Positions 3,932-63,493 of a stretch of 64,000 bases of DNA are shown one piece after another. The DNA comes from Blastobasis lacticolella (Eukaryota; Arthropoda; Insecta; Lepidoptera; Blastobasidae). Position 1 is the first letter of the stretch, and each line of letters begins with the position of its first letter. Both the position numbers and the translations under genes were made by a program. The notes under the pieces were generated by a model. The model saw only the letters and a list, made by a program, of their open reading frames with translations, was not told the origin of the DNA and did no database searches. The stretch covers positions 4,042,501 to 4,106,500 of the forward strand of contig LR990050.1 in NCBI GenBank assembly GCA_905147135.1. Reading direction: 5' to 3'.

Positions 3932-4318
3932 GATCAGTTTTCCAATAGGTATCTAAGGCATCCCTAACCACTCACTAGATGGCGCCCCAACAATTTTGGT
4001 AATTGATAATCGCTTGAAATAGGTTCTTAGCAAAGAGGATATAAACACTGGATACGTTGTTTTGGATAATATTATATTTACAATAGGTTTCAACCATTTT
4101 GGAGGTTGTAATAAATTATTACAAACAGAACAAACATCAATTTGACTGAGCTATTTCGTTTCATGGACACTAGGATCAAGAATGGACGCAATACAAATAT
4201 GAAATGTTTGTATTAAAATACATTTCGTTGAACCTTTTGTTAAAAAATTACCAAAATTGTAGGAGCGCCATCTATTGATGCTTTTTGAAACCAATTGATA
4301 ATACCTACTGGAAAACTC
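3932..4318. mobile_element. Palindromic MITE-like element
   Basis: The left terminus (TTTTCCAATAGGTATCTAAG ... AGATGGCGCCCC) and right terminus (near 4249-4318: GGAGCGCCATCT ... TACCTACTGGAAAA) are inverted copies of each other. The interior (4020-4240) matches 1-250 in the opposite orientation. About 390 bp, no coding capacity. It has the structure of a non-autonomous DNA transposon or foldback element; target duplications are not clear. Confidence 0.65.
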
Positions 4319-13035: not shown

Positions 13036-13038
13036 GTG

Positions 13039-13292
13039 GCCGTGTGGTGTCCGGCAGAGTAGAATAGCACCAACCCCTTACACTCGTGGGTGTCGTACAA
13101 GGCGACTAATGTTTTCGAGGCAAAAGATCTAAGCGCCTCCGTAGACTGGAAAATGGGCAGCAGCATTTTCCATTGTTATATTAAAACACTGCGATCTCCA
13201 ACCCGCCTGCCAAGCGTGGAGATTATGGCAATAACCTCCCTTTTTGTGGGAGAGGCCCTGAGTCTTGCAGTGGACTGTTATGGGCTGTGATG
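13039..13292 (+). mobile_element. Repeat 3, full length
   Basis: CCGTGTGGTGTCCGGCAGAG at the start, GGCGACTAATGTTTTCGAGG, AAAATGGGCAGCAGCATTTT, GGAGATTATGGCAATAACC, and the end GTTATGGGCTGTGATGATG. Confidence 0.75.
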
Positions 13293-13299
13293 ATGAATT

Positions 13300-14680
13300 A
13301 TTTAAAATTATCTAGAAAACAAACTCAACCAACTCGTATATTTACCTATAACATTACAAAAACATACTGAGAAAGTGTATCTTGGTATTTTTCTTAAGAA
13401 TTACAATTGAGAAACCTTTAAAGTTTCCTACAGAAGAAGAAAATAAAACAGGAGTTGCTAAATTCGTTTACAGCAACTCCGAGACCACGGTAAGCCGCAC
13501 GACGTGACACCGATATAAATTGGTATCGTTCATATAAATTGGTATTATTTCTATTATCTACGAAGATTTGTGTGCGGTCTTATTTTTCAATTTACGCAGC
13601 GGCTTCAGTGTCGTAAAACAAACCGTGGAGCCCGATAGGAAACTTTTCTGTACCGAGTTCGGTAAAGATAGGAGATCTAATTTATACCTTTGGCGGATGA
13701 AAGTGCCCGGGTAAAGGAAACTTCGGCACACAGCCACAAATATTCAACTCCGCATTGCTATCATTGGAAATTTCTGATTATTTCTCAATAACGTTTGATG
13801 TCTTTGTATATTTTACTGATCGTTGCGTTTTATTTCGCGTTCATTTCAAACGTTGAAAGTTGAATGTGAGATTTCATACTAAGAAAATGGGTTGGTATCA
13901 GACAGCTTACCAATTCAAAGATTATCTTTTTTCTCCTTATATTCCATGATGTACCGTGGACTGGGGTTACTTTGATTTTAGAGGAGACCTTGATTACCTT
14001 CTTTAAGTTCTAAGGGAAATATTGCTGATTTTTGGTAAATTTACTTATCAGTGTTGTCACATGACATGTTTTGTTTGCATGAAAATAATACTTAATTAAT
14101 AGAGAAAACTCAGTGATCAATGTGTCCGCAAATCAAAGTAACCCCAGTCTATCGTATTGTTATAATTAATAAAAAATATATTTCAAAATTTTATTCTTTC
14201 AGTATTTGAAAGTAGCAAAAAAAAAATATAGTACCTACGCTCCCAACATAGGTTAATTGATTTAACGCCTTTATTTCTACGATTACTGAATTCCATATAC
14301 GTAATATTAACGATAAATTAAAAATCTGTTTTTCAAATCCCCACAGAGCAGATGTATAATTGCTGGGAGGAAAATATCCATCCATCTTTTCCCCTTAATG
14401 CAGTGTCTGGGAAATGGGAAATAATTACGCGAGCATTTTTCCCTTTCTAATTGCTTGGTCGAAATTACCTGACATTCCCTTAAATGGCAATCTAAGAATC
14501 AGGACTGGCCATAATGATTTCTCTAGGGGCTCGCTTAAATATCAGCTACCGGGCCGCTGAACTAGGTAAATGGGCCTTTGTCGAAAAGGCCGAATTTATT
14601 TGAGTTCTGAATATCGTCTTACTTAAGCAGGGTCGTGTTGGCAATTAAAATAGTATAATTGCAAAAGTTTGTAAGGCTGC
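13300..14680. other. Unassigned stretch
   Basis: No gene recognised. A+T-rich with short homopolymer runs. Confidence 0.4.
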
Positions 14681-21785: not shown

Positions 21786-22060
21786 GTCGAATCGAATCAT
21801 TGGTAGGACAACTTATGTCGTTTAAAATAATTAAATTATAGTACGTAAAACCAAGTATGCACAAATTAGAATATAATAAAAATTACCAAAGTAATTTATA
21901 ATTAATGTCATACCTACCGAAAATTGTAGGCCAAATAAAAAATGACAATTACGATTAAATCAATAAAAATATTAATGGCATAACATTAAAATGTTTAAAT
22001 ATTTATAACAATACAATAATGTCAAGTATTTAATAATTGAATAATTTCAAATGTAAATTA

Positions 22061-22317
22061 GCCGTGTGGTGTCCGGCAGAGTAGAATAGCACCAACCCCT
22101 TACACTCATGGGTGTCGTACAAGGCGACTAATGTTTTCGAGGCAAAAGATCAAGAGTCTCCGTAGTCTGGAAAATGGGCAGCAGCATTTTCCATTGTTAT
22201 ATTTAAACACTGCGATCTCCAACCCGTCTGCCAAGCGTGGAGATTATGGCAATGACCTCCCCTTTCGTGGGAGAGGCCTAAGTCCTGCAGTGGACTGTTA
22301 CGGGCTGTGGTGATGAA
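22061..22317 (+). mobile_element. Repeat 3, full length
   Basis: GCCGTGTGGTGTCCGGCAGA to GGGCTGTGGTGATGAA, closely matching 13039-13292 and 47635-47890. Confidence 0.78.
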
Positions 22318-22319
22318 AT

Positions 22320-25215
22320 AAATACAACAATACTTGTCTAAGTAAAGTAGCTTGACTATGCGTTTTCACAGTGCTCGTCTGCTAAGTGAACGCACAGTTT
22401 TAAATACGGCTCTATGATTGGTCAATTTCGTTCATTTTGACGGATGCATAGTACAGATCGTCACTCAAGTATTATCACTTAAAAACTTGGGATTTAGTGC
22501 ATTTCGTGCGTACTGTAAGACGTTTCTGAATACAGGTGTTCTTATTTTATTTTTATTGTAACCGTGCTCTGTTGCCGTTTCGCACGCCAATTCACCCATT
22601 ATTCGAGCCTTGGGTGTGCTCAACGCGTTCCTAGCATCGGCACCCGAGTATGACGTATTTGCCTGGCGATGGATGGATGTGTGCAAGGAATGCCTGAAGT
22701 ACTGCAAGAGGATTAATCAATTAGAATATTTTATAATGGAAACTGATATATCTATAGCTTTTAGTGAATTAATTAACACTGTAATACTGTAAAGTTGTTT
22801 TAAATAAATAATGAATAGTCATAGTCAGGAGGCGCTCTGGAAACCGACGTCACGGCGACTGTCGTGGCGATTCTGAGTGTGTCCCCATTCCACTCTCCAC
22901 ATGGCACAGGTTACAAGATTAGAGTATCTTTTTTTCGTTGACATCTCTGTTATACTTATTTTTCTTTCCCTATGAATATTTTTAATTTCGTGCCGTGTCT
23001 AACTTTACTTTACTTCATAATGAATCAAGAATCACGATTGAACAGTATGCAACTAAAGTAACCGCAGTTGTCGTATAACGCCGTGAGATTCAACTACGTC
23101 TATGTCAAAGATTCAAGCCCTCCTAGTGTGTGAGTTGTATACTAAAATAACATTGCGATCACACGCTCTACTTAGGCACATAAATAGCTGTAAGCCACTA
23201 TTCAACAGCCAACATACCCTCGCGTCACTTCAGTTCGCTACGCTGTGGTGCCTACGTCATGTTCGAGCACACTATGTCACTTTAAAGTGACATGTACATG
23301 ACACAGGTTACTTGTGACAGTGGTGTACGCTGTTTATGCGTATAGTTTGATACAGTTTAGTTTGAGACCTATGTAGCGCAGTAGTTAGAACTGCCTTGGT
23401 TTTGGTGTAGATTATCGGCTGGAACAGATTTCTAGATCAAGACTCAAGTCCGCTATTTTTACTTATTACACAATTTGATTGAGATTAGTTAAAAGTATAT
23501 TACACTCGAGACAAATTGGATATTCAGCAAAAACTTGTAGGTAAGCCCATATGACTTCTAATGGAATCGACTCTCCATCGACGCTTTCCTATGTTGCCTT
23601 CTAAAATGTACCTACATACCCTGTTCCATAGTTACCACAGTTATATGGACTCAGAACAAAACAGGTATCTTAGACCAACATGCTGATATAAGAGTGACCG
23701 TAACCAATTTTTTGTGGTACAAACTACTACAAACACAAAAGTGCCGTGCCAGTAGGTAAACAAGTATCAAGCAAAACTAATACTAGTTAGTTCATACTAC
23801 AATGTCAGGGATCTGACTGGCACTAGCCAGGGGTACCGGGATATCTAGGTACTAACCTGGGTATCCCTGTATCAACACACCACAGCCCACACAAGAGTGC
23901 CAAGGTTCTAACTAGCTGGTAGGTAAGCGTGTGATATATCGCTTCGACCATAACGTATGCCGACGACAAACTGACGTGGCGACTCTATTACTCACAACCA
24001 GTGGAATTTATGAACCGAATAACAGCACTCTCCAGATATTGGATACGTGATGTAAATCCCGATCCGTGCTATGAAAACAAAAGCGATTTCTTGTAGCATT
24101 TAACTAAATGTTGCGATGTGTAAAACGGTCTGATTTGTACCTTGAACAGATCCGAGATTTCGCACCGATGGACGGAATAATCCAGAACTATATTACGAGA
24201 GCGGTTATATTTTTTTGGTTTATGAAAATATAGGTACACGTCGTCGTACGTCTTTGAATTATGTAGCAATTTTCTATTTGATATTTTAGCATATTGTTTG
24301 TCTTTATTTTCTTCGCGAAATGGAAATTCAATATCGTATCCCTGAATATTTTCAATAGTGGTTTTCTTTGAGAATGTATTTGTTGCTGTTTGTTTTTGGA
24401 TCTGGGTATCGTTTAAGTGTGCCAGACTAGTTTGATGTATCTAAGTAATTTTTGGAACAACTTAGACTTATTATTTTAATCAGAATATATTAAAATTAAC
24501 AGGTTCCTCTATGGAGCAGTTAAACGGTTGCAAATTATTATCATATTATATAGACAATAGACACCTATAGTAGACGTCATAAGCCGCGTCGAAAGCCTCT
24601 TGGGCAACTTCGATGAATAAATAAGCCATAGTTGGAATGGCTGAAAATAGGCAATATTTGTGTGTGGGATTCTGTGTAGGTACATCTATCGCCACCCTGT
24701 TTAGAGGTAGTGCCGAGGAGATATACCTGTACCTAGGTAGATGCAAATTGTTCCAGCAATTTACATAGTAATTCCTGTTTAGACGTAATCCGGGATAAAG
24801 ACAATTTTCTGTAAAGGTCAGCTTTCGGTACCGTTGTAAAATTCGCAGCAGCTTAAGAAGCTATTTTATATGATTAGATACAAAAATTATGATTATAATT
24901 TTAGAACAATTTCTTTTATTGTTTTCTTAAGAACTAAAGAACTAGAGAATCAACTCCTTGTAAATACTAACGAAACACATTAGGACCATCCAGGCCTTCG
25001 ATAGACCAAAAAATGGGCAGTATTTTGAGTATAGTGGCAGCGTGCTTGCGAGACCGATGTGAAAAGTTAAGCAACGCACGCGGATGGTAACTGGATGGGT
25101 GACCGTTTCGTGCTTTAATGCTAATCGAAGTTTGATACCGCAACGGTCAAGATCTCCTGCTGAAGACCCTGAGAGTGGTTTAATAGTCTCAGGAGCCTCG
25201 TGCCGGTAATTATTA
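22320..25215. other. Mostly unassigned; 22805-22920 is a dispersed repeat
   Basis: No gene recognised. 22825-22915 (GGAAACCGACGTCACGGCGA ... TGAGTGTGTCCCCATTCC ... CATGGCACAGGTTAC) has a relative at 58825-58920. Repetitive GTACC-rich DNA around 23820-23900 contains a small local duplication (GGGGTACCGGGATATCTAGG / GGGTATCCCTG). Several short open frames have no family features. Confidence 0.4.
25033..25212 (+). mobile_element. 5S rRNA-derived SINE (SINE3 type)
   Basis: AAAAGTTAAGCAACGCACGC ... GGTAACTGGATGGGTGACCG matches the internal control region of 5S rRNA (AAATTAAGCAGCGTCGGGC...TAGATGGGGGACCG). The remainder, CAGGAGCCTCGTGCCGG, is a non-5S tail. It is too diverged to be a 5S gene. A related minus-strand copy lies at 39107-39275. 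Confidence 0.72.
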
Positions 25216-27834: not shown

Positions 27835-30224
27835 TGTAACGATCACTATGTACCATGAGCTCGTCACCGTATAATTTATTTATATATCATATGATTGTAA
27901 TTGATGGACTTGGAAATGAATACGCATATCATACACAGAGCAGTGTGTGGTTAAAAATAGTTTGCTTATCATGATTTCTTTTAACAAATGCTCTCAAATA
28001 CTTAACCAAAACTTGGTTTTGTAATAAACTTAAACAATTTATTTGACGATAAGAGAAATATTTTACTTCAAAAGCCCGTAATAAATTTACGCTATTGATT
28101 GGTTGTACGACAGGCGAAATATCGTGAATGTCTTAAATGTTTGGCGTCAAGTATGGGACTCAAGAAAAATACTCACAAGTGATAGTGATGTGAAATTCAT
28201 ACAAATACGTTCCAACAAGATATCGAAATAAATAATTGAATAAAAGCACACTTAAATATTAAACGAGTCTAGAATTTAATTTGAATCTACTTGTTTGATG
28301 ACTCAAATGGATTTGCTTCATAGGAATTAAATATATCTAAACTCAGTCTGATGAAAGATTACATCGAGTTTATAGTACCTAAAATGTCTTTATATTGTTT
28401 ACTTATAACTCCCTACATTATAAATTTTGGTCTAAAGAAATTACACATCGAATCCATTTGCTTACGTATTTTTGTTTGCGTTGTTTAAATTTAATCGACT
28501 CGGTAAATAAATAAAACGTCGTATGCACACATCCCTACATCCCTAGCGGTTGTAACATTTAACTATTTTCGGTTTAACAGGAACACTTTGTAAAATTTAT
28601 GGATATGCGAACGTTATAAGAGCAGTCGCTTTAGACCTCATAAACTTAGAAATATTTCATTTTTTGTTTGTTTGTAATATTGAATTGTGGGAATTTTGAC
28701 GATAACGATTTAAAGCAAGGTGGCCAGAGTAGGAGAAACGGGACAGTCAGCCCTTGGGTCGCGTCGCGTGAGCATCATCGTATCCATTTCCGTAACTAAG
28801 AAACCCCAAGCTTTTCCAAATTTCCTCGAAAAATTCATTACAACTCGCGTGTAGTTTGTTAAATTAATTAGTGCTTCATTATTTTGTGTTATCTTTCAGC
28901 TTTGTGTCGTTTCTTTCGTTCTCTATCTATTTCTTAAACTACTTAGTGTCAGTGATTTGGTTTGTTTTATATTTGTCTTTGTTTCTAAGTTTCGAAAGCG
29001 TAAGTTACATTCTCATTACTTATGGTAGTTAAGAGTATTTATTAGGGCTCTTAGAGATTTCAACATAAGTGTAAAAGGTGAATAAAACACAAATTTTGAG
29101 AAAAATATTACCAAATTAAATATCATCAGTACACACCCGCACTGAATAAAAAACTATAAAACTAACCTGGGACACAGTTTCGGATGTGACATCGAATACA
29201 CTCTAAGAGAATGAGTCCGGCATGAATCCCGACTTGGTCTTCGATGGCCTAGGCGCTCTAACTAAGTCTACGCCTAGGTTTGCCGCCGAATTCTGGTACG
29301 ATTTTGGCCCATGTTCCGTTTAATACCCTTTGTGCTTTTAAAGCTTTAATGACATTTTCCTACGGACATGAATCTCGAGTTTGGATCGAAACCTGGCCCG
29401 AGTCGTTATCGTCCCTCACTAGGCACACAACTTACACACGCGAAGTAAATAAAATTTAAATAATAGTCTCTCCTTTGACTCGTGAGTCGATAGGTAGGAC
29501 CATAATAATGCCTGACGAGATGATCGGAATATGAGTGACGGTTTGAGCGAAGTAGACAATAGGTCACTGGTTCGATTGATTTCGAAGGCTTTGCTGGTTG
29601 GCTGAGATATAAGGTGTGATGGGAGTCTCAGTTCCTTATCGATTAGGTAGGTTTTCCGAGACCTAATGGCCTCTATTCTATATTATTTAAGTGAGGACAA
29701 CGTTAGGATTTCGCAATCATAGGGTTAGAGTGGCCACAGAAGAAAGAAGAATCCGTTGCCGTTTCGAGTGTTGTCAAAGCTAAGTCGCATGTTTACTTTA
29801 CTTATACTTTGTTTGATTTTTGTACGGATTTTATAAATTGTTTGACTATTTCGATTTGCGTGAATTACATTTAAATCATCTTATTTACGTGGATTTATGT
29901 TTGTTTCGTTTAATTTTTAAGGATTTTGATACTTTTATTTAGGTGAACTAAACTTTATTCATATGCGAATTTCTTCCTAATTCGTGTAGTTGAATTACAG
30001 ATAAATGCTATAAAACTTACATATTCCTTGTGACGTTTTTTAAAATGTGTACACAACGTAATGGGTCTGAAAATTTAAATCAATAACTAGACGATCACTT
30101 GCTTACGGCCAAATCTCAATATGTGAAATGATATTTATTATGTTATGTCTACTCTTTATAGATAGATACTCGTATGTGTGTATTTATACAGACGGATAGG
30201 TATTAGGGTGACTGTGAAGTTACA
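27835..30224 (+). mobile_element. Long terminal repeat 1 of tandem LTR array (2,390 bp)
   Basis: Begins TGTAACGATCAC and ends GTGAAGTTACA, so the tips form the short TGTAAC/GTTACA inverted repeat typical of LTRs. Copies at 32119-34508 and 36403-38792 look identical in a visual comparison and are exactly 4,284 bp apart with no net indel. At 2.39 kb the LTR is longer than most insect LTRs. It contains several AATAAA motifs (such as AGGTGAATAAAACAC near 29079) but no protein motif. Orientation is inferred from primer-site placement: TGG-starting PBS after 30224, purine tract before 32119. Confidence 0.85.
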
Positions 30225-30228
30225 GATT

Positions 30229-30245
30229 TGGTGCGCGTGTCCAGG
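30229..30245 (+). promoter_or_regulatory. Candidate primer-binding site, copy 1
   Basis: TGGTGCGCGTGTCCAGG starts with the TGG that pairs with the CCA end of a priming tRNA and lies 4 nt downstream of the LTR. The tRNA is not identified. The same site is at 34513-34529. Confidence 0.5.
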
Positions 30246-30586
30246 ATAATTGCGTCATTAAAAATTGAATTAAATTGATTCAATTACGCGACAAAAGAAC
30301 CTGGTTACTATGAAACACAACGTAGCATGTCATAACCGTTAGCTTTTCTGGGAAAACAAAAAAAAACCAATTGGGAATATTTTGGGTCGTTCGCTCTTTA
30401 CAAGGAATGCATTTTTTGTTGCTTAGTGAAAAAAAATATGGGTCACACATCAGTTAGAACAGCTGAGGTCCCTTTTTGTATCATTTTGGATTTGGACATA
30501 GACGAATTTAAAATTACTGTATTCGTTCAATAAACCACGTCTTTGCTTATTACAACAAATTATTCGTTAGCGTTATTTTTTTATCT

Positions 30587-31456
30587 AAGGGGCGTTTAGT
30601 GACTGTAGTTTATAATGTGCATTCAAAATGTTAGTAATGGAAACGTTAAAGATTAAAGTAACGAATTCTATAAAAGATGATTTAGGAATTGATATGAGGA
30701 AGGTGATACGTAGGAAAGCTTTGTGTTCCTTAAATTAAAACATTTATAGATATAAGGGGCGTAGAACGAGTACATTTAGCTCGTCATTTTTGTTCAAATT
30801 TCAATACCTAATAGAAAATAATAGTTAAAGCAATATTTGTGTAAATGTGAATACTAAATCTTAAGATTTAGAGAATTAAGGGGCGTAATACAATGCATAT
30901 GCGATTCTTCAGTTTAGTTACATAGAGCGAGGTAGTTACTACAGTAAGTATGGCTTTGTTTATATATGTGTCGAATCATAGGCGTTCTCGGGCTAAGTTC
31001 TTGTGGAAATGAAAATACGGATTCAACGTAATATATTATTGTTAACAAATGTTAGGTACATACACAGTACTATCGCGCGCGTGCCTCTTCAATCCTAGCG
31101 GGCGTCCTGCCGCCCCGCAGCGATGCCCAAGCGACGCGCATTCCTCGCAAAAGCACTTGACATATTCAATTGCCATTGGTTTGAAATAAAAAACGCGCTA
31201 CTATTAGCTGGCAGCGTGCACCGATTAGTTTATAACAGTAAATGGCGCAAGAGCGCATCAAACTTAAAACTACGATGATTACAAATGTAGTTATAGGCAG
31301 GAAATAATATTACAATTTGGTTTAATAAATTGTAATCTACGACATATGTATGTAAATCGTAGTGCGGGAAGAGTTTGAACCGTAGATTCTGAGGAACATT
31401 TTCTATTTTCAATCGGACCGACTTCCTACATATTTGTCGCAGATGTTAAGGGGCGT
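30587..31456 (+). repeat. Four internal purine-tract-like motifs AAGGGGCGT
   Basis: AAGGGGCGT occurs at 30587-30595, 30754-30762, 30878-30886 and 31448-31456, each after an A+T-rich stretch. The polypurine tract beside the downstream LTR reads AAAGGGGCGC (32107-32116). All five recur 4,284 bp downstream in internal region 2. Confidence 0.8.
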
Positions 31457-31563
31457 TTTGCTTATTAGTAATTGCGTAGGAAATTAATATGTGCATCTTA
31501 TTTTTCATTTTTTGCTCTTCTAAATAGTATAACGCGATTTAAAAGCTTACCATCTGGCGGACC

Positions 31564-31854
31564 GTGCGCTTGCTTGCCGCCTTATTGGTAAACAAAAAAA
31601 AGGGGAATCCGGAAATGTTAATACTTATAAAAAACGAACACACGGTCATTCACCCCAAAACAGATGCGTATGAAAAAAGGGATCACTTTCAGCACAGATG
31701 GTGTGACTGTGACCTTTATAAAAAGTTTGCGAGTGACATTGGGTTTGCGATGTTGACGTCAAATAGTGACAAACATATAAGTTTTCTATTTTGGGTTAGG
31801 TATTTGAAAGGATCACAACATGTACTTTTTAAGACTGCAAGGGACGAAGAGTGA
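31564..31854 (+). other. Unrecognised 96-codon frame in the LTR-element interior
   Basis: Opens MRLLAALLVNKKKG and ends FKTARDEE. The first dozen codons lie in antisense LINE 3' UTR (family C, 31549-31597), so the start is probably fortuitous. The centre (HRWCDCDLYKKFASDIG) is charged and has no motif I know; two Cys are too few for a zinc knuckle. An overlapping 63-codon frame follows (31820-32011). Identical copies lie at 35848-36138 and 36104-36295. Coding status is doubtful. Confidence 0.25.
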
Positions 31855-32106
31855 TAAAACGCAAGCTTCAATAAGTTTGGTTATTAAAAGGGGAGTACCT
31901 GGAGCACGGATAAAATTAGTGTTATTTTCAAATCAATCTAAGAATTTGGAATGTACGAGGCTTGCTTTTATTCTATACCTGACTCAGAAAGAACGCATAA
32001 TTAAAATATGACGATTTAGATTAGACATCTTTGTCGTTTTTATGTTTTTCAAGTGGTGATTTTCCACGTTCTTCTTCCCTTCAGGAATTAAGAACATGTT
32101 CAAATC

Positions 32107-32118
32107 AAAGGGGCGCTC
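32107..32118 (+). promoter_or_regulatory. Polypurine tract before LTR 2
   Basis: AAAGGGGCGCTC immediately precedes TGTAACGATCAC. This is the expected position and composition for the plus-strand primer of an LTR retrotransposon. Repeated at 36391-36402. Confidence 0.65.
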
Positions 32119-34508
32119 TGTAACGATCACTATGTACCATGAGCTCGTCACCGTATAATTTATTTATATATCATATGATTGTAATTGATGGACTTGGAAA
32201 TGAATACGCATATCATACACAGAGCAGTGTGTGGTTAAAAATAGTTTGCTTATCATGATTTCTTTTAACAAATGCTCTCAAATACTTAACCAAAACTTGG
32301 TTTTGTAATAAACTTAAACAATTTATTTGACGATAAGAGAAATATTTTACTTCAAAAGCCCGTAATAAATTTACGCTATTGATTGGTTGTACGACAGGCG
32401 AAATATCGTGAATGTCTTAAATGTTTGGCGTCAAGTATGGGACTCAAGAAAAATACTCACAAGTGATAGTGATGTGAAATTCATACAAATACGTTCCAAC
32501 AAGATATCGAAATAAATAATTGAATAAAAGCACACTTAAATATTAAACGAGTCTAGAATTTAATTTGAATCTACTTGTTTGATGACTCAAATGGATTTGC
32601 TTCATAGGAATTAAATATATCTAAACTCAGTCTGATGAAAGATTACATCGAGTTTATAGTACCTAAAATGTCTTTATATTGTTTACTTATAACTCCCTAC
32701 ATTATAAATTTTGGTCTAAAGAAATTACACATCGAATCCATTTGCTTACGTATTTTTGTTTGCGTTGTTTAAATTTAATCGACTCGGTAAATAAATAAAA
32801 CGTCGTATGCACACATCCCTACATCCCTAGCGGTTGTAACATTTAACTATTTTCGGTTTAACAGGAACACTTTGTAAAATTTATGGATATGCGAACGTTA
32901 TAAGAGCAGTCGCTTTAGACCTCATAAACTTAGAAATATTTCATTTTTTGTTTGTTTGTAATATTGAATTGTGGGAATTTTGACGATAACGATTTAAAGC
33001 AAGGTGGCCAGAGTAGGAGAAACGGGACAGTCAGCCCTTGGGTCGCGTCGCGTGAGCATCATCGTATCCATTTCCGTAACTAAGAAACCCCAAGCTTTTC
33101 CAAATTTCCTCGAAAAATTCATTACAACTCGCGTGTAGTTTGTTAAATTAATTAGTGCTTCATTATTTTGTGTTATCTTTCAGCTTTGTGTCGTTTCTTT
33201 CGTTCTCTATCTATTTCTTAAACTACTTAGTGTCAGTGATTTGGTTTGTTTTATATTTGTCTTTGTTTCTAAGTTTCGAAAGCGTAAGTTACATTCTCAT
33301 TACTTATGGTAGTTAAGAGTATTTATTAGGGCTCTTAGAGATTTCAACATAAGTGTAAAAGGTGAATAAAACACAAATTTTGAGAAAAATATTACCAAAT
33401 TAAATATCATCAGTACACACCCGCACTGAATAAAAAACTATAAAACTAACCTGGGACACAGTTTCGGATGTGACATCGAATACACTCTAAGAGAATGAGT
33501 CCGGCATGAATCCCGACTTGGTCTTCGATGGCCTAGGCGCTCTAACTAAGTCTACGCCTAGGTTTGCCGCCGAATTCTGGTACGATTTTGGCCCATGTTC
33601 CGTTTAATACCCTTTGTGCTTTTAAAGCTTTAATGACATTTTCCTACGGACATGAATCTCGAGTTTGGATCGAAACCTGGCCCGAGTCGTTATCGTCCCT
33701 CACTAGGCACACAACTTACACACGCGAAGTAAATAAAATTTAAATAATAGTCTCTCCTTTGACTCGTGAGTCGATAGGTAGGACCATAATAATGCCTGAC
33801 GAGATGATCGGAATATGAGTGACGGTTTGAGCGAAGTAGACAATAGGTCACTGGTTCGATTGATTTCGAAGGCTTTGCTGGTTGGCTGAGATATAAGGTG
33901 TGATGGGAGTCTCAGTTCCTTATCGATTAGGTAGGTTTTCCGAGACCTAATGGCCTCTATTCTATATTATTTAAGTGAGGACAACGTTAGGATTTCGCAA
34001 TCATAGGGTTAGAGTGGCCACAGAAGAAAGAAGAATCCGTTGCCGTTTCGAGTGTTGTCAAAGCTAAGTCGCATGTTTACTTTACTTATACTTTGTTTGA
34101 TTTTTGTACGGATTTTATAAATTGTTTGACTATTTCGATTTGCGTGAATTACATTTAAATCATCTTATTTACGTGGATTTATGTTTGTTTCGTTTAATTT
34201 TTAAGGATTTTGATACTTTTATTTAGGTGAACTAAACTTTATTCATATGCGAATTTCTTCCTAATTCGTGTAGTTGAATTACAGATAAATGCTATAAAAC
34301 TTACATATTCCTTGTGACGTTTTTTAAAATGTGTACACAACGTAATGGGTCTGAAAATTTAAATCAATAACTAGACGATCACTTGCTTACGGCCAAATCT
34401 CAATATGTGAAATGATATTTATTATGTTATGTCTACTCTTTATAGATAGATACTCGTATGTGTGTATTTATACAGACGGATAGGTATTAGGGTGACTGTG
34501 AAGTTACA
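32119..34508 (+). mobile_element. Long terminal repeat 2 (shared)
   Basis: Same 2,390 bp as LTR 1. It is the 3' LTR of the first unit and the 5' LTR of the second, the product expected from LTR-to-LTR unequal crossing over. Confidence 0.85.
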
Positions 34509-36402
34509 GATTTGGTGCGCGTGTCCAGGATAATTGCGTCATTAAAAATTGAATTAAATTGATTCAATTACGCGACAAAAGAACCTGGTTACTATGAAAC
34601 ACAACGTAGCATGTCATAACCGTTAGCTTTTCTGGGAAAACAAAAAAAAACCAATTGGGAATATTTTGGGTCGTTCGCTCTTTACAAGGAATGCATTTTT
34701 TGTTGCTTAGTGAAAAAAAATATGGGTCACACATCAGTTAGAACAGCTGAGGTCCCTTTTTGTATCATTTTGGATTTGGACATAGACGAATTTAAAATTA
34801 CTGTATTCGTTCAATAAACCACGTCTTTGCTTATTACAACAAATTATTCGTTAGCGTTATTTTTTTATCTAAGGGGCGTTTAGTGACTGTAGTTTATAAT
34901 GTGCATTCAAAATGTTAGTAATGGAAACGTTAAAGATTAAAGTAACGAATTCTATAAAAGATGATTTAGGAATTGATATGAGGAAGGTGATACGTAGGAA
35001 AGCTTTGTGTTCCTTAAATTAAAACATTTATAGATATAAGGGGCGTAGAACGAGTACATTTAGCTCGTCATTTTTGTTCAAATTTCAATACCTAATAGAA
35101 AATAATAGTTAAAGCAATATTTGTGTAAATGTGAATACTAAATCTTAAGATTTAGAGAATTAAGGGGCGTAATACAATGCATATGCGATTCTTCAGTTTA
35201 GTTACATAGAGCGAGGTAGTTACTACAGTAAGTATGGCTTTGTTTATATATGTGTCGAATCATAGGCGTTCTCGGGCTAAGTTCTTGTGGAAATGAAAAT
35301 ACGGATTCAACGTAATATATTATTGTTAACAAATGTTAGGTACATACACAGTACTATCGCGCGCGTGCCTCTTCAATCCTAGCGGGCGTCCTGCCGCCCC
35401 GCAGCGATGCCCAAGCGACGCGCATTCCTCGCAAAAGCACTTGACATATTCAATTGCCATTGGTTTGAAATAAAAAACGCGCTACTATTAGCTGGCAGCG
35501 TGCACCGATTAGTTTATAACAGTAAATGGCGCAAGAGCGCATCAAACTTAAAACTACGATGATTACAAATGTAGTTATAGGCAGGAAATAATATTACAAT
35601 TTGGTTTAATAAATTGTAATCTACGACATATGTATGTAAATCGTAGTGCGGGAAGAGTTTGAACCGTAGATTCTGAGGAACATTTTCTATTTTCAATCGG
35701 ACCGACTTCCTACATATTTGTCGCAGATGTTAAGGGGCGTTTTGCTTATTAGTAATTGCGTAGGAAATTAATATGTGCATCTTATTTTTCATTTTTTGCT
35801 CTTCTAAATAGTATAACGCGATTTAAAAGCTTACCATCTGGCGGACCGTGCGCTTGCTTGCCGCCTTATTGGTAAACAAAAAAAAGGGGAATCCGGAAAT
35901 GTTAATACTTATAAAAAACGAACACACGGTCATTCACCCCAAAACAGATGCGTATGAAAAAAGGGATCACTTTCAGCACAGATGGTGTGACTGTGACCTT
36001 TATAAAAAGTTTGCGAGTGACATTGGGTTTGCGATGTTGACGTCAAATAGTGACAAACATATAAGTTTTCTATTTTGGGTTAGGTATTTGAAAGGATCAC
36101 AACATGTACTTTTTAAGACTGCAAGGGACGAAGAGTGATAAAACGCAAGCTTCAATAAGTTTGGTTATTAAAAGGGGAGTACCTGGAGCACGGATAAAAT
36201 TAGTGTTATTTTCAAATCAATCTAAGAATTTGGAATGTACGAGGCTTGCTTTTATTCTATACCTGACTCAGAAAGAACGCATAATTAAAATATGACGATT
36301 TAGATTAGACATCTTTGTCGTTTTTATGTTTTTCAAGTGGTGATTTTCCACGTTCTTCTTCCCTTCAGGAATTAAGAACATGTTCAAATCAAAGGGGCGC
36401 TC
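34509..36402 (+). mobile_element. LTR-element internal region 2
   Basis: Repeats internal region 1 at an offset of exactly 4,284 bp, including the candidate primer-binding site, all purine-tract-like motifs (34871, 35038, 35162, 35732), the G+C-rich patch and the unrecognised frames at 35848-36138 and 36104-36295. Confidence 0.85.
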
Positions 36403-38792
36403 TGTAACGATCACTATGTACCATGAGCTCGTCACCGTATAATTTATTTATATATCATATGATTGTAATTGATGGACTTGGAAATGAATACGCATATCAT
36501 ACACAGAGCAGTGTGTGGTTAAAAATAGTTTGCTTATCATGATTTCTTTTAACAAATGCTCTCAAATACTTAACCAAAACTTGGTTTTGTAATAAACTTA
36601 AACAATTTATTTGACGATAAGAGAAATATTTTACTTCAAAAGCCCGTAATAAATTTACGCTATTGATTGGTTGTACGACAGGCGAAATATCGTGAATGTC
36701 TTAAATGTTTGGCGTCAAGTATGGGACTCAAGAAAAATACTCACAAGTGATAGTGATGTGAAATTCATACAAATACGTTCCAACAAGATATCGAAATAAA
36801 TAATTGAATAAAAGCACACTTAAATATTAAACGAGTCTAGAATTTAATTTGAATCTACTTGTTTGATGACTCAAATGGATTTGCTTCATAGGAATTAAAT
36901 ATATCTAAACTCAGTCTGATGAAAGATTACATCGAGTTTATAGTACCTAAAATGTCTTTATATTGTTTACTTATAACTCCCTACATTATAAATTTTGGTC
37001 TAAAGAAATTACACATCGAATCCATTTGCTTACGTATTTTTGTTTGCGTTGTTTAAATTTAATCGACTCGGTAAATAAATAAAACGTCGTATGCACACAT
37101 CCCTACATCCCTAGCGGTTGTAACATTTAACTATTTTCGGTTTAACAGGAACACTTTGTAAAATTTATGGATATGCGAACGTTATAAGAGCAGTCGCTTT
37201 AGACCTCATAAACTTAGAAATATTTCATTTTTTGTTTGTTTGTAATATTGAATTGTGGGAATTTTGACGATAACGATTTAAAGCAAGGTGGCCAGAGTAG
37301 GAGAAACGGGACAGTCAGCCCTTGGGTCGCGTCGCGTGAGCATCATCGTATCCATTTCCGTAACTAAGAAACCCCAAGCTTTTCCAAATTTCCTCGAAAA
37401 ATTCATTACAACTCGCGTGTAGTTTGTTAAATTAATTAGTGCTTCATTATTTTGTGTTATCTTTCAGCTTTGTGTCGTTTCTTTCGTTCTCTATCTATTT
37501 CTTAAACTACTTAGTGTCAGTGATTTGGTTTGTTTTATATTTGTCTTTGTTTCTAAGTTTCGAAAGCGTAAGTTACATTCTCATTACTTATGGTAGTTAA
37601 GAGTATTTATTAGGGCTCTTAGAGATTTCAACATAAGTGTAAAAGGTGAATAAAACACAAATTTTGAGAAAAATATTACCAAATTAAATATCATCAGTAC
37701 ACACCCGCACTGAATAAAAAACTATAAAACTAACCTGGGACACAGTTTCGGATGTGACATCGAATACACTCTAAGAGAATGAGTCCGGCATGAATCCCGA
37801 CTTGGTCTTCGATGGCCTAGGCGCTCTAACTAAGTCTACGCCTAGGTTTGCCGCCGAATTCTGGTACGATTTTGGCCCATGTTCCGTTTAATACCCTTTG
37901 TGCTTTTAAAGCTTTAATGACATTTTCCTACGGACATGAATCTCGAGTTTGGATCGAAACCTGGCCCGAGTCGTTATCGTCCCTCACTAGGCACACAACT
38001 TACACACGCGAAGTAAATAAAATTTAAATAATAGTCTCTCCTTTGACTCGTGAGTCGATAGGTAGGACCATAATAATGCCTGACGAGATGATCGGAATAT
38101 GAGTGACGGTTTGAGCGAAGTAGACAATAGGTCACTGGTTCGATTGATTTCGAAGGCTTTGCTGGTTGGCTGAGATATAAGGTGTGATGGGAGTCTCAGT
38201 TCCTTATCGATTAGGTAGGTTTTCCGAGACCTAATGGCCTCTATTCTATATTATTTAAGTGAGGACAACGTTAGGATTTCGCAATCATAGGGTTAGAGTG
38301 GCCACAGAAGAAAGAAGAATCCGTTGCCGTTTCGAGTGTTGTCAAAGCTAAGTCGCATGTTTACTTTACTTATACTTTGTTTGATTTTTGTACGGATTTT
38401 ATAAATTGTTTGACTATTTCGATTTGCGTGAATTACATTTAAATCATCTTATTTACGTGGATTTATGTTTGTTTCGTTTAATTTTTAAGGATTTTGATAC
38501 TTTTATTTAGGTGAACTAAACTTTATTCATATGCGAATTTCTTCCTAATTCGTGTAGTTGAATTACAGATAAATGCTATAAAACTTACATATTCCTTGTG
38601 ACGTTTTTTAAAATGTGTACACAACGTAATGGGTCTGAAAATTTAAATCAATAACTAGACGATCACTTGCTTACGGCCAAATCTCAATATGTGAAATGAT
38701 ATTTATTATGTTATGTCTACTCTTTATAGATAGATACTCGTATGTGTGTATTTATACAGACGGATAGGTATTAGGGTGACTGTGAAGTTACA
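36403..38792 (+). mobile_element. Long terminal repeat 3
   Basis: Complete third LTR, ending GTGAAGTTACA at 38792. The next bases are GGCT, the repeated target site, and then the host repeat resumes. Confidence 0.85.
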
Positions 38793-38991
38793 GGCTACTA
38801 ATGTTTTCGAGGCAAAACTTCTAGAGTCTCCGTAGGCTGGAAAATGGGCAACGGTGTTTTCCATTGTTACATTTATAATGCAGCGATCTCCAACCCGTGC
38901 GTGCCAAGCGTGGAGATTATGGTAATAACCTCCTCTTCCGTGGGAGAGGCCCTAAGTCCTATGGACTATTATGGGCTGTGATGATGATGAT
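38793..38991 (+). mobile_element. Repeat 3, 3' part, split by the LTR array
   Basis: GGCTACTAATGTTTTCGAGG ... AAAATGGGCAACGGTGTTTT ... TTATGGGCTGTGATGATGAT. Continuation of 27778-27834. Confidence 0.82.
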
Positions 38992-41959: not shown

Positions 41960-42600
41960 AGGCCATGATGTAAAAATGGTTTTAAAAGCCTTTAAAAAGG
42001 TAAGGGAAAAATAACCAAGAAATCGCATCCTATTGCACCTTGACAATGCTTCGGCGCAGATTGCGGACGAGACAAAGTCATTTTAAGCATCTGAAGTGAC
42101 CCATTTCGCACATTGTCCAGATCTGGCACCGTGCGATTTCTATATTTTATCAAAAATCAAAGATTTAATAAGTCGTGTGGTGTCCGACAGAGTAGAATAG
42201 CACCAACCCCTTGCACTCGTGGGTGTCGTATAAGGCGACTAATGTTTTCGAGGCAAAAGAACTAGAGTCTCCGTAGGATGGAAAATGGGCAGCAGCGTTT
42301 TCCATTGTTAAATTTATAACACTGCGATCTCCAATCCGCCTGCCAAGCGTGGAGATTATGGCAATGACCTCCCCTTTCGTGGGAGAGGCCCTAAGTCCTG
42401 CAGTGGACTGTAATGGGCTGTGATGTGATGTGTGAAGAGGCCGTGATAGCTTTCAACCTGCACGTGACAAATATGCCCTCAGACCAATTGAATGGTCCAC
42501 TTGTTTTCAAAAACGGTTTGACCGAATAAATATCTGTTTAAATTGTAATGAAGAATACTTCCTCAGTAAATTATTTTATTAATGAGTTACGCAAAACTTT
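41960..42600 (+). pseudogene. mariner transposase, 3' part, dead and interrupted
   Basis: FKKVREK, then ILLHLDNASAQIADETKSF (relatives ILLHHDNASAHTA, second catalytic Asp) and CPDLAPCDFYIL (relatives SPDLAPCDFFLF, third Asp). After the repeat 3 insertion at 42172-42434 the C-terminus resumes as EEAVIAFNLHV and, shifted, KRFDRINICLNCNEEYF (relatives W..R...CI...G.YFE). In-frame stops and frameshifts throughout. Same mariner copy as 39285-39708. Confidence 0.8.
42172..42434 (+). mobile_element. Repeat 3, full length, inside the mariner
   Basis: GTCGTGTGGTGTCCGACAGA ... GCAGTGGACTGTAATGGGCT followed by GTGATGTGATG. Mariner coding sequence lies on both sides. Confidence 0.8.
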
Positions 42601-47193: not shown

Positions 47194-47634
47194 AAAAGTC
47201 AAGTCAAGTGTGAAGAGTCCGCCTGGGTAGGTACCACCTTATCTATTTCTGGCGACAAGCAGCAATGCTTGCATTGTAGGGTTCTGGTGGAGCGAACCGT
47301 TTTTTATTTTAGGTTCCAGTTTGAAAGTTAAGGTGGTCAGCGCTATTACAGACATCAGGCATTTCATTTTAATCTTAATAGGGAACGCGCCTGCGGATCT
47401 GCATTTCGTTGCCTGCAACTTAAATTATGAACGCTTCATCCTTAAATCATGCATCTTCCAGCTATCCGTATGAGCCGCTTTGGTTCAATGTTTATTGTAT
47501 GGAATGGAACACGTTGCCTATGAGTGTGTTCCTTGATTACTATACTATACTATCTGGACACTTACAAGGTTGATAAGCTGTTCTTAGATAGCCATGCCCC
47601 ATCTTCTGTCGCATCGACACTTACTACCAAGTGT

Positions 47635-47915
47635 CATCATCAAAGCCCGTAACGGTCCACTGCAGGACTTAGGGCCTCTCCCACGAAAGGGGAGGTTATT
47701 GCCATAATCTCCACGCTTGGCAGGCGGGTTGGAGATCGCAGTATTTAAATATAACAATGGAAAATGCTGCTGCCCATTTTCCAGACTACGGAGACTCTTG
47801 ATCTTTTGCCTCGAAAACATTAGTCGCCTTGTACGACACCCATGAGTGTAAGAGGTTGGTGCTATTCTACTCTGCCGGATACCACACGGCCAACTCTGCC
47901 GGATACTACACGGCC
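47635..47915 (-). mobile_element. Repeat 3, with a partly duplicated 5' end
   Basis: Full unit on the minus strand (3' end CCCGTAACGGTCCACTGCAG in plus orientation, 5' end GCCGGATACCACACGGCC at 47874-47891). A second copy of the 5' tip (ACTCTGCCGGATACTACACG) follows immediately at 47894-47915. Confidence 0.75.
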
Positions 47916-48962: not shown

Positions 48963-50557
48963 CAGTCGGGTACAAAATACAAATACAGTTATTTAAACAA
49001 ATTTGAAACAAAAAGGAATATCTCGGTTTTTAAGGTCTTTGTAACTTGTTGTGTTTGATAATATGCGGGTTCTTTAAAAAAAACAATAATTTGTTAATTT
49101 AATGTTTATGTATTGAACATATTATTCTGAATCGCTATTTGAAAAATTAAATGATTAATTTTCGGATTCGCTGCTGTCACAAAGGTTAATTATGAATTCT
49201 GCCTCCAAGTCAAAGTGTCGATAGTATTCTTCTTCTTTCTTTTGTACATGTCGACAAGTATTACCCCACATTCCTTCATCAATTTGACTTAAACGTTCAT
49301 TTATTAGTTTCATTATTCCCGTCACATTTTGGTCGACATTACGCAAAGCAATTTAAAAAAATTATATTTTTTAAAATTCCCCACACATTTTCTATGGGGT
49401 TTAGTTCAGGATGATATGGTGGCAGTCGAAGAACTTTTATGCCATATGGCTGAAGTATGTCATCAATCTTATAACAAATATAGTTTTCTTTATTGTTTTT
49501 AATCAAATCATACAGTTAAATTTTTTTCATATCTAAATTAAAAGCTATATTTTTTTCAGTCAGCCATCTCTGCATTTCAATTTTTTTGGAATTAGAATTT
49601 GGAGCTCTGTCATTTTAAACATTATGGTATGAGGCATTATCAAGCACAACCACAGAGTTAGGTGGAAGATTCGGTATTAGACGTTCTTTTAGCCACTTTT
49701 CATAGTTTTCTGCATTCATGTTAGAGTGGTAATCACCGGAAACACTATTTGCTTTGTATGTCAATAGTGCGTTAGGTACGAAACCTTGTTCTGAACCAGC
49801 ATGCACAATAATAATTCTTTGTCCTTTCGACAGGTTTCTCTTTAGAGGTGGTCCATCTTTATTACCCCATCCTTTGTTTTGCACATGATTAGTTAAGATA
49901 TAGCTCTCACCTGTATATACGATACACCGATTTTCTTGACGGTATCTGAGTAAGTTTTTCAGGTAAGAAAATCTTAGTTTTTGGATGTCATGCCGCTCTA
50001 TGATAACACGTCTGTTATCCACAGTTTTTCGCCATTTGTATCCCAACTTTAACAAAGCTGTACGCAGAGTCGAAATACTTCCATCATAATTAAATTTCTC
50101 TTGAAATATTCTTTTCAACTTTAGCAATGTAGGTAACTCGTGATGTTCTAAATGGTAATTTTGAATAGTTGAACGTATAACATCAACGTTAAAGTTGTCT
50201 AATTCTAACTTCTTCGAACGTTTTTTGCGGTCTTTATGCGGAGATTTAAATTTAGAGTCAGATTCTTTTCCTTCAGCTAATATATTAGTTATTGTTCTCT
50301 CTGATATTGGTGTACTGCCATTGGTGTTCTTTTCCGTACGCTGTTTAAATGTTCACTTCATTTCGATATTAAAATTGGACTTGCACTGCAAACTGGATCA
50401 CTTACTAGTTGCAATATATCTCTCGTATCTTTTTTCAGAAATTCGTATACCTTAGCAATGGTTTCTTCTTTTATATCTAAATTCAAAATAAACAAATATT
50501 TACCTGACTCCTTAAACATTTTCTTCGTCAAGAACTAGACATTTTTGTTAACGACTG
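48963..50557 (-). mobile_element. Tc1/mariner-superfamily transposon, 1,595 bp
   Basis: Bounded by TA at 48961-48962 and 50558-50559. The ends CAGTCGGGTACAAAATAC and, reversed, CAGTCGTTAACAAAAATG are inverted copies. TA duplication, CAGT-starting termini and length fit the Tc1/mariner (IS630) superfamily. It carries one dead transposase gene (49155-50519). It lies inside a longer inverted repeat; either that is a separate palindromic host element or this copy has composite long termini. Confidence 0.75.
49155..50519 (-). pseudogene. IS630/Tc1-type DDE transposase, dead
   Basis: The N-terminal part reads MFKESGKYLF and SERTITNILAEGKES, followed by a basic KDRKKRSKK and LELDNFNVDVIR: the helix-turn-helix region of insect IS630-like transposases. 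The longest intact piece (49615-50127) holds LGYKWRKTVDNRRVIIERHD, a first catalytic box reading IVYTGESYI where relatives have an Asp before the Glu, GFVPNALLTY, and VVVLDNASYHN (second Asp). A TAA follows; beyond it come another stop, then HPELNPIENVWGILKN (third acidic residue) and a frameshifted C-terminus with CDSSESEN at its end. Loss of the first Asp, stops near residue 171 and later, and frameshifts make it inactive. Confidence 0.85.
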
Positions 50558-60939: not shown

Positions 60940-62125
60940 AGACACTGGCAAAGACACATAACAGACTAGACACAAATCAAAAATATTCCCTGTTCGCTCA
61001 CTCTACAATTATTATGAACCTCGCTATCCCGTTTTTTCGTCTATTGAAATAAGCTGTCAGAAAATAACGCGCGCAATGTTTTGAACGCTCCACATGTTGC
61101 TGGAGCTCCTGAAGACCTGACGTTTCTTTTGAAACATCGGTGAATAATTTTATAATTTCCTAATATAATTTAAATCAAAGCACCTAAAAGACGGTGTAAT
61201 TTAGTGCACATCTAAATGAAAATTTTAGAAATTTAAATATTGTAATCGAAAAGTATAAAATAATAACATAATTCTTTTTTTTTTTCAATAAACCCACTAC
61301 GTAATAGAAAATAATAATTGACCATAGATAGGTAACATGTAGGGAAAGCAAAATTGGCATAATGTCAACTCGAAGCAAATGGAACAAATGGGTGTTTTAT
61401 TAGATACATGACTGTTTTAATCAATGTCTAAACAATCCTAATGTCAAACTGAGTACCTACTTCAACTGTCACAATATAGATAAATTGGAATAATAAGTTT
61501 AAGGGAAGTGTTGGATATAGAAATAATATTCTTGTATACCTATATCCTTATTAATTTATTAACCGTAACACTGTTAACGTTGTAATGTCAATCTCTTAGC
61601 AATGTTCTGTCTCTCTGTGTCACTGTTTGACCAGCCAGTGATAATGATTTACTACGATTTCCGAAATTAAAAATAGATTTCTCAAGTTTCTCTGACCGAG
61701 GGTCAGCAGGGTTTCATTTCACCAGCACCGAATAGCCTTAGGTACATTGCACTGTGCCTGGATATAGATCTAGATACTGTCAAACAACAAATATCAAAAA
61801 TACAAAACGAACAAAGCTACCATAATATTTTTCGGTTAATTTTGTAACCTCAAATAAATGTAAACAATAAGTACTACAAAATACATTAATTCCACTTAAA
61901 TTCAAATGATTTCCAAAAGATCACATTTATTTCAATATTTTCAAAATCTATCTGAATACATGTTACGTACCGTTTAAATCTTTGCTGTACATCTTCCAAA
62001 TCAAACAGCAACTTATCTGCTCTAAACTCGGCCATACATGCTTGAGAAACTCAAAATATTACTGTTTTCGTGCCGCTTTTATTTTTTTGTACTTATTTCG
62101 AAAATAAATGTCCCACACAGTAAAA
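60940..62125. other. Unassigned A+T-rich stretch
   Basis: No gene, SINE or recognisable transposon. Several short A+T-rich open frames are without family features. Confidence 0.45.
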
Positions 62126-62126
62126 T

Positions 62127-62134
62127 GCTGGAAA
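62127..62134 (+). repeat. Target-site duplication GCTGGAAA, left
   Basis: Identical to 63486-63493 on the far side of the element. Eight base pairs, as expected for P elements. Confidence 0.88.
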
Positions 62135-62165
62135 CACAGAAATGAAACAAAAACAGAATCCATGT
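62135..62165 (+). repeat. Left 31-bp terminal inverted repeat
   Basis: Starts CACAGAAATGAA and ends GAATCCATGT. All 31 positions pair with 63455-63485, and the next position differs, so the length is exactly 31. Confidence 0.9.
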
Positions 62166-62301
62166 TACTTTAAAGAGATGTGGTGCATGCAAGGTGTGAC
62201 AATCTCCTTTGTTGTACATGACATACACTCATCGGGTCTTACAACGCGCCGCCATTTCGTAGCGATCGGACATATTAATCCTCGATGAAAAATATTTAAA
62301 A

Positions 62302-62913
62302 ATGCCGTCATGTGTAGTGAAATCGTGTAAGAGTTACTGGAAAAAATGTAACAAGGCAGGAGGAATTACCTACCACGCATAAGTAATTATGGTTCGGGCT
62401 ACTTTTTTTTATTAATGTTTTATTTACTATGGTGCAAATTTCAAACAAAAGTACAACGATGTGGCTACCTGTTTTTCGGGAAAATTCCCATAAAATGGGG
62501 AATTCTTTATTAAATTTGTGACTCAGATCAGGTTCCGAATTTTTATTACCTATCGTATCTGAAAAGAACTTGAATGATTGTAATTATAGTCTACCCTACG
62601 TACTGCTATGATGTAAGCATAGTAGTCCGATTTTGTAATTAAATAATATAACACCGCTTTCTGCGGAGCCCTTATTATTTTCGATCCCGATTTTATTTTA
62701 ACCGGGTTATATTATTTTAATAGGTTTCCTAGTAATAAAAACCGTAAAGACGATTGGATTCTAATTATACGAAACTGTAGAAGAGAAACCAATTGGAACC
62801 CATCATCTGCGAGTACCGTGTGCAGTGCACATTTTGATGACGTGGATTTTATAACAACCGCGAAGGGGCTACGATGCTTGGTTCCGTACGCCTTTCCAAA
62901 ACGTGTAAATTAA
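62302..62913 (+). CDS. THAP-domain protein of the P-like element, two exons
   Basis: Exon 1 (62302-62378) encodes MPSCVVKSCKSYWKK and ends in YH plus two bases. Exon 2 (62724-62913) follows ...TTTTAATAG and begins G TTT CCT, giving AFPSN. Joined, the ~88 residues form a C2CH zinc finger: Cys4, Cys9, Cys59, His62, with invariant Pro28, Trp37 and Phe63 and a C-terminal AFPKR in the place of the AVPTI box. THAP domains bind DNA in a sequence-specific way, and in P elements recognise the transposon's own ends. The 345-nt intron interrupts the domain after codon 25 in phase 2, as in human THAP1 (from memory). The intron starts ATAAGT, not GTAAGT; if unspliced, a TAA at 62380 ends translation after 26 codons. 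A GTAAAT at 62905 could be a further donor. Possible self-repressor; may be a pseudogene. Confidence 0.75.
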
Positions 62914-62984
62914 CTGAATAGCTATTTTGTTTTTTATAATTTGATGTATCTATTTGTACCCGCCTCGAATAGCAGAATAAGAAA

Positions 62985-63133
62985 ATAGGGCAGGATAGGG
63001 GTACGGGAGGGGTACGGCAGGCATACGGTAGGGATACGGGAAGGTGACAAGAGAGGTACGGGAAGGTGACAGGAGAGGTATGGGAGTTGTACGAGAAGGT
63101 TACGGCAGGCATACGGTACGGGAGGGTTACGAG
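62985..63133. repeat. Minisatellite inside the P-like element
   Basis: About a dozen irregular units of GGTACGGGAG / GGATACGGGA / GGTGACAAGA type, 9-16 bp long. The two minus-strand open frames rich in Pro, Ser and Tyr are simple translations of this array and not genes. Confidence 0.8.
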
Positions 63134-63454
63134 AACAAATTGAACCGGACAGCTGTCTGTTATTTATTTTTAATAACACTGCCAGAAATGCGCAATATTG
63201 AAAATATGATCAAACTTTATTTGTATGGAGCGTACTCGGGGAGACTCCTCTTATCAAAATATTTCATTACTTAAGAATTTTTAAATAAATAATTACAATC
63301 AGAAATTTATAATTTTTATTTATTTATTATTGTAAAGTTGTATTGCTAACATAATACATAAAGAGGGCAAAATGGATCATGTATATGGCAACCCTAAAAT
63401 TACTTAGACATATAAAATGGCGGCCATTTCTATGCTTCCCTCATGACTTAAGAC

Positions 63455-63485
63455 ACATGGATTCTGTTTTTGTTTCATTTCTGTG
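63455..63485 (-). repeat. Right 31-bp terminal inverted repeat
   Basis: ACATGGATTCTG ... CATTTCTGTG, exact reverse complement of 62135-62165. Confidence 0.9.
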
Positions 63486-63493
63486 GCTGGAAA
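63486..63493 (+). repeat. Target-site duplication GCTGGAAA, right
   Basis: Exact copy of 62127-62134; flanking bases beyond it differ. Confidence 0.88.

Follow-up and report, generated by a model that had tools for sequence, protein, structure and literature searches.

The P superfamily was described in a review from 2018 as mostly restricted to Drosophila (PMC5791352). The P element of Drosophila has 31-bp ends, P elements prefer promoter regions, and the KP protein comprises 207 aa (PMC7776569). P elements of Anopheles carry ends of 27–31 bp, are flanked by 8-bp duplications and have P-MITE derivatives (PMC1562414). Lepidoptera are represented in a review table by a P element of Trichoplusia ni, a moth, which was found as an insertion in a baculovirus (PMC5704228). 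This published entry bears on the question raised in the first-pass annotation, namely whether such lepidopteran P derivatives are already described. Among the open-licence papers searched, no entry for Lepidoptera beyond this one was found.

The locus analysed here lies in a stretch of 64 kb, hereafter called the window, and consists of an element of 1,351 bp at positions 62135–63485. Like the Drosophila P element and KP, which contains a THAP domain, it features perfect 31-bp ends, an 8-bp duplication, an apparent internal deletion and, on its left side, THAP exons. Unlike KP, which makes a dimerising 207-aa protein, it retains THAP only, and its first intron has no GT donor. The P-MITEs of Anopheles gambiae share with it P-like ends, 8-bp duplications and a centre without transposase (PMC1562414), but the element in the window retains recognisable THAP exons. 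The Trichoplusia ni element is, by its table entry (PMC5704228), likewise a lepidopteran P element.

Boundaries and target site

The coordinates of the first reading proved to be exact, and the element is delimited by the following features:

62127–62134, no strand: left copy of the target-site duplication, 8 bp, GCTGGAAA
62135–62165, + strand: left terminal inverted repeat, 31 bp, CACAGAAATGAAACAAAAACAGAATCCATGT, identical to the right end at 31/31 positions
63455–63485, − strand: right terminal inverted repeat, 31 bp, identical to the left end at 31/31 positions
63486–63493, no strand: right copy of the target-site duplication, 8 bp, GCTGGAAA, perfect match to the left copy

The perfect ends, the perfect duplication and the length given in the first-pass annotation were all confirmed at these positions. 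Both 31-bp ends are flush with GCTGGAAA and begin with CACAG; when extended to 36 nt, their identity is 94%. Within the 64 kb, the + strand has GCTGGAAA three times, two of which are flush with the element ends. For a perfect 31-bp inverted repeat that directly adjoins an 8-bp direct repeat, also perfect, the chance expectation was calculated to be ~1e-15 per window (own arithmetic: 0.25^39 × ~2.6e8 pairs, base frequencies taken as equal), and the probability that ends and duplication arose by chance is negligible. Just two other perfect inverted-repeat pairs of at least 31 bp, with a spacing within 4 kb, are present in the window:

223–262 and 3998–4037: perfect inverted-repeat pair
846–877 and 1937–1968: perfect inverted-repeat pair

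An 8-bp target-site duplication, here GCTGGAAA on either side, and terminal inverted repeats, here matching at 31/31 positions (compared to 27–31 bp in Anopheles and 31 bp in Drosophila), are traits of the P superfamily. Exact searches gave no match (0 each) in viral_contigs for the 31-bp and the 22-bp end, nor in genome_contigs for the 22-bp end, a moth element being hardly expected in either collection.

Ends and duplication together provide 39 paired sites, which bound the divergence between the two sides only to less than ~7% (95%, own arithmetic). The perfect ends were therefore rejected as proof of recency and are weak evidence for a recent mobilisation.

THAP exons and coding capacity

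Six-frame translation yielded MPSCVVKSCKSYWKKCNKAGGITYHA followed by a stop, with the remaining THAP, FPSNKN...PKRVN and a stop, 345 bp further on. The coding part is divided as follows:

62302–62378, + strand: THAP exon 1, encoding MPSC..C..GITYH, with two further bases that belong to a split codon; located by tblastn to relatives; CACGC precedes the donor
62379–62723, + strand: intron 1, 345 bp, donor ATAAGT (AT where GT is usual), acceptor TTTTAATAG
62724–62904, + strand: THAP exon 2, FPSNKN...VPYAFPKR
62905–62913, + strand: probable remnant of the intron-2 donor, GTAAAT, read through as V-N-stop

When joined, 62302–62378 and 62724–62904 matched the Pfam domain THAP (PF05485) with 49 bits (cut-off 23.9), a score obtained with an approximate query protein in which one residue was missing and one changed. 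Matches of the window THAP to THAP2 and THAP1 in the PDB were weaker (E values of 4e-5 to 0.013). The THAP zinc finger recognised in the first-pass annotation is thus upheld by Pfam as a domain, but not as a single reading frame, since it is spread over two exons around the 345-bp intron. The N-terminal THAP typical of the P superfamily is coding only with this AT-AG intron removed. At the exon junction, most relatives show ITYH, one variable residue and FP (ITYH[R/K/V]FP); as the variable residue falls exactly at the junction, the codon appears to be split 2 + 1 by the intron.

At the acceptor, TTTTAATAG, nothing is unusual. The donor CACGC|ATAAGT agrees with the usual donor at positions +2 to +6 and has A at +1. 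With a crude donor score, the AT site reached −5.1, versus +5.5 for the GT at 62327, which is in the wrong phase, and +4.4 for the GT at 62383, which follows the stop. Donors other than GT, of the AT-AG type, are very rare. Eight GT sites in the right phase lie beyond the stop at codon 27. The two that precede it, at 62307 and 62325, are both weak and would lead to proteins of 64 and 70 aa in which the first two cysteines are not both present. The unspliced in-frame read ends after 26 residues, within the zinc finger. Given the AT donor, the rarity of AT-AG introns and no suitable GT alternative, the product of the window copy is most likely a 26-residue fragment or none.

At the place of the V-N-stop, two proteins of Chilo suppressalis (P0006 and P0007, see below) continue with LLSN..., and the end of the open frame is probably a remnant of the second donor (GTAAAT). 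We infer the introns of the relatives from their proteins alone.

Subterminal repeats and interior

Three further features were found between the terminal repeats:

62248–62257, + strand: left copy of a subterminal inverted 10-mer, GCCGCCATTT, 113 bp from the end; weak candidate for a protein-binding site
63415–63424, − strand: right copy of this 10-mer, 61 bp from the end
62990–63148, no strand: G-rich minisatellite with an 11-bp unit

P elements feature subterminal inverted repeats or transposase-binding sites, and the 10-mer GCCGCCATTT may be a weak candidate for one. A shared word as long as this was reached in 60 of 2000 Markov shuffles. The ~540 bp between THAP and the right end gave no match to P proteins in tblastn and are partly minisatellite, which possibly expanded after the internal deletion.

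Protein relatives and superfamily membership

A protein search with the THAP query, which admitted proteins of ~48–152 aa only, returned four proteins from four candidates, all of Loxostege sticticalis (P0001–P0004). With a padded query, three of five candidates were obtained as relatives, namely P0005 of Aricia agestis and P0006 and P0007 of Chilo suppressalis. A profile search based on P0007 and P0006 yielded 14 proteins from 4,325 candidates, both query proteins included. Chilo and Loxostege belong to the Crambidae, Aricia is a lycaenid and Parnassius, also represented, a papilionid, in line with the lepidopteran setting noted in the first-pass annotation.

Comparison of the window THAP with its five nearest whole-domain relatives resulted in identities of 65–77%, with P0006 at 77% over 87 aa, P0001 at 72% and P0002–P0004 at 65–70%. 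P0007, the second Chilo relative, is 70% identical over 63 aa, and the THAP of P0012, a Chilo transposase without ZAD domain, 47%. The predicted protein P0005 has two THAP domains, which are 44% and 60% (second THAP) identical to that of the window.

P0007 includes the N-terminal RNase H domain of P transposases (7e-11) and overlaps with P0009, also of Chilo, at 95% identity over 83 aa, the overlap ending within the leucine zipper. P0009 is a near-complete P transposase without the N-terminus, with HTH (1.2e-17), RNase H N-terminal (3.3e-42), GTP-binding (3.3e-40) and RNase H C-terminal (9.7e-18) domains, and its match to the Drosophila P transposase of known structure, 6p5a, had an E value of 5.2e-27. 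P0006 goes from the zipper straight to the residues corresponding to 582–602 of P0009, the end of the RNase H C-terminal domain; the predicted protein looks internally deleted, either by a deletion in the DNA or by splice prediction. The zipper of the relatives was putatively assigned from its location and from a long helix predicted for P0006 (296–346), without Pfam match. The Chilo proteins P0006, P0007 and P0009 thus offer the closest THAP, but differ from the window element in that they go on with ZAD, leucine zipper and, in P0007 and P0009, catalytic parts. In viral_contigs, 130 stretches matched the pattern of the THAP alignment and 29 that of P0009; none of either set was confirmed as a relative.

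The whole window was searched by tblastn with 20 protein queries, i.e. the 19 fetched proteins and the THAP of the window itself. Fifteen of the 20 matched, all inside 62299–62955, while P0009, P0010, P0014, P0015 and P0019 gave no match. No remnant of the P catalytic part was detected in the window at E ≤ 1e-3, and neither leucine zipper nor HTH was detected in the element with the relatives as queries. An RNase H-like domain with GTP-binding insertion, the trait of an autonomous element, is present in P0009, P0012 and P0016. As no catalytic domain was detected in the element, it is filed only as a non-autonomous derivative.

Membership in the P superfamily is well supported by sequence comparison, because the nearest proteins are THAP proteins of crambid moths, of which P0007 features a P RNase H domain and overlaps P0009. 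The link between these particular ends and a P transposase would run through the THAP exons between them. Both the superfamily proposed in the first-pass annotation and its remark on the missing catalytic domain are in line with the protein relatives and the tblastn result.

Origin of the element

Based on the ends, the duplication, the THAP exons with their AT donor and the catalytic part of which no remnant was detected, the element is very probably a lepidopteran P-superfamily transposon, non-autonomous and with an internal deletion, that was moved in trans by a P transposase and is a passive passenger. Of a transposase gene, it would still have exons 1 and 2, which encode THAP, in addition to both ends; the sequence downstream of the exon-2 donor would be lost, and non-coding, partly minisatellite DNA is found in its place. 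By analogy with known P elements, a full-length P transposase made elsewhere would bind the ends, excise the element and insert it with an 8-bp stagger, i.e. by cut-and-paste. The window copy would contribute its ends only and no working THAP protein, so that it would be carried along passively instead of acting as a repressor.

The first-pass annotation had favoured such a repressor, a THAP-only protein that, as a reduced version of Drosophila KP, would sit on the ends of the element and repress its transposition. The THAP codons are intact over both exons and a stop follows soon after; the four short predicted THAP proteins of Loxostege also fit, but came from a search that admitted only ~48–152 aa. 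This role is nevertheless quite unlikely for the window copy, in which intron 1 has an AT donor, the GT sites of usable phase either follow the stop (eight) or cost one or both cysteines (62307 and 62325), and the open frame stops at 26 residues in the zinc finger. Moreover, it is without leucine zipper or HTH, whereas KP dimerises according to the title of Lee et al. (1996). The expressed protein of THAP and leucine zipper that characterises a KP-type repressor is not apparent from this sequence, as no zipper was detected and the donor is AT.

Transposons of the hAT superfamily also generate 8-bp duplications, and one that had captured THAP exons might resemble this element. Their ends follow the pattern CAGNG, whereas the present ones begin with CACAG, and the nearest proteins found were P transposases, albeit with queries of THAP and P type. 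We regard a hAT origin as highly improbable. Less remote, though still doubtful, is a P-MITE-like chimera of P ends and mostly unrelated filler, in which the THAP exons were kept through their closeness to the left end. This reading overlaps with that of an internally deleted passenger; the two part only over where the filler came from and over copy number, which is high in a P-MITE, an element expected to have no coding capacity. It would account for the ~540 bp to the right of THAP and has a precedent in the P-MITEs of Anopheles, in which P ends enclose an unrelated centre (PMC1562414), but the THAP exons are still recognisable.

ZAD domain in related proteins

By itself, the internally deleted element is one more non-autonomous P copy, and its interest lies mainly in pointing to a lineage with ZAD, a domain through which the ZAD-zinc-finger regulators of insects form dimers. 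ZAD was found beside THAP and/or P-type zipper sequence in five predicted lepidopteran proteins (P0006, P0007, P0008, P0010 and P0011). The E values for zf-AD were 4e-7 (P0006), 4.9e-7 (P0007), 5.5e-17 (P0008, Parnassius apollo) and 2.5e-8 (P0011, Parnassius mnemosyne); P0010 of Aricia, with 5.9e-6, was slightly under the curated cut-off. In P0006 and P0007, the ZAD is located between THAP and zipper. P0008 has two ZADs, the second one between THAP and a zipper-like stretch, P0011 shows the second half of a THAP-like domain ahead of its ZAD (by alignment, without Pfam match) and P0010 is without THAP.

The spacing CxxC-44-CxxC was observed in 5/5 ZAD proteins from four species, which also have similar linkers, and was absent in 3/3 P transposases tested as ZAD-less (P0012, P0013 and P0016). 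Based on this conservation, a chimeric gene prediction was judged unlikely as the source of the THAP-ZAD combination. The structure predicted for P0006 was of low quality (mean pLDDT 49, pTM 0.25), and none of its 19 Foldseek matches had an E value ≤ 0.001. THAP domains (THAP1 and the P transposase 3kde) shared ranks 1–10 with ZAD domains (M1BP, Pita, CG2712), most of the others being chance-like, so that the matches to the model lend mild support to THAP and ZAD.

A tree of 15 THAP domains, some of them partial, showed a split with a local support of 0.993. One side comprises the window, the four Loxostege proteins, both ZAD-bearing Chilo proteins and the second Aricia THAP. Opposite to these stand the ZAD-less proteins, together with the first THAP of Aricia and the partial THAPs of both Parnassius proteins. 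The ZAD-bearing proteins are hence not all grouped, with Parnassius apart from the window and Chilo. Either an early gain followed by loss, an exchange of THAP and ZAD parts or misleading partial domains could lead to this distribution. With less certainty, and on the closest neighbours only, a ZAD between THAP and leucine zipper is also assumed for the parent of the window element.

We lean slightly towards the view that the element derives from a lepidopteran P lineage that gained a ZAD between THAP and zipper, and in which deletion copies that are short and bear THAP form again and again; by means of the ZAD, the transposase or its truncated forms could pair among themselves or with ZAD proteins of the host. 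If true, such pairing would tie transposition or repression to host chromatin factors. The nearest relatives suggest that moth and butterfly P transposases took up the interaction domain of a host regulator. This is the fresher point of the analysis: among the matches listed from open-licence papers, no title or abstract start was found that describes a ZAD in a P transposase. THAP on two Drosophila ZAD-zinc-finger genes (PMC9810180) is a different combination from the THAP-ZAD P proteins.

Insertion site and other repeats of the window

A possible first coding exon was noted on the − strand close to the element:

61971–62035, − strand: possible first coding exon, MAEFRADKLLFDLEDVQQRFKR followed by GTACGT

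The insertion is located upstream of this putative exon, at a distance of 91 bp (duplication) to 99 bp (element), and would fit the promoter preference of P elements. The 22 aa encoded by the exon gave no Pfam match.

Elsewhere in the window, a unit of 4,284 bp is repeated in tandem ~2.56 times with 100% identity (27835–38793), which points to a tandem duplication of very recent date or else to an artefact of the assembly. A dispersed repeat of ~260 bp is present at 13022–13300, 22040–22320, 42167–42430 and 47634–47893, with 92–96% identity among these four copies. It is probably a short mobile element, and more diverged copies were also found in the window. An open frame of 170 aa on the − strand (49615–50127) may be a remnant of a Tc1/mariner-like transposase, to judge from a weak match to DDE_3 below the cut-off (6.8e-6, 26.4 bits, cut-off 28.6).
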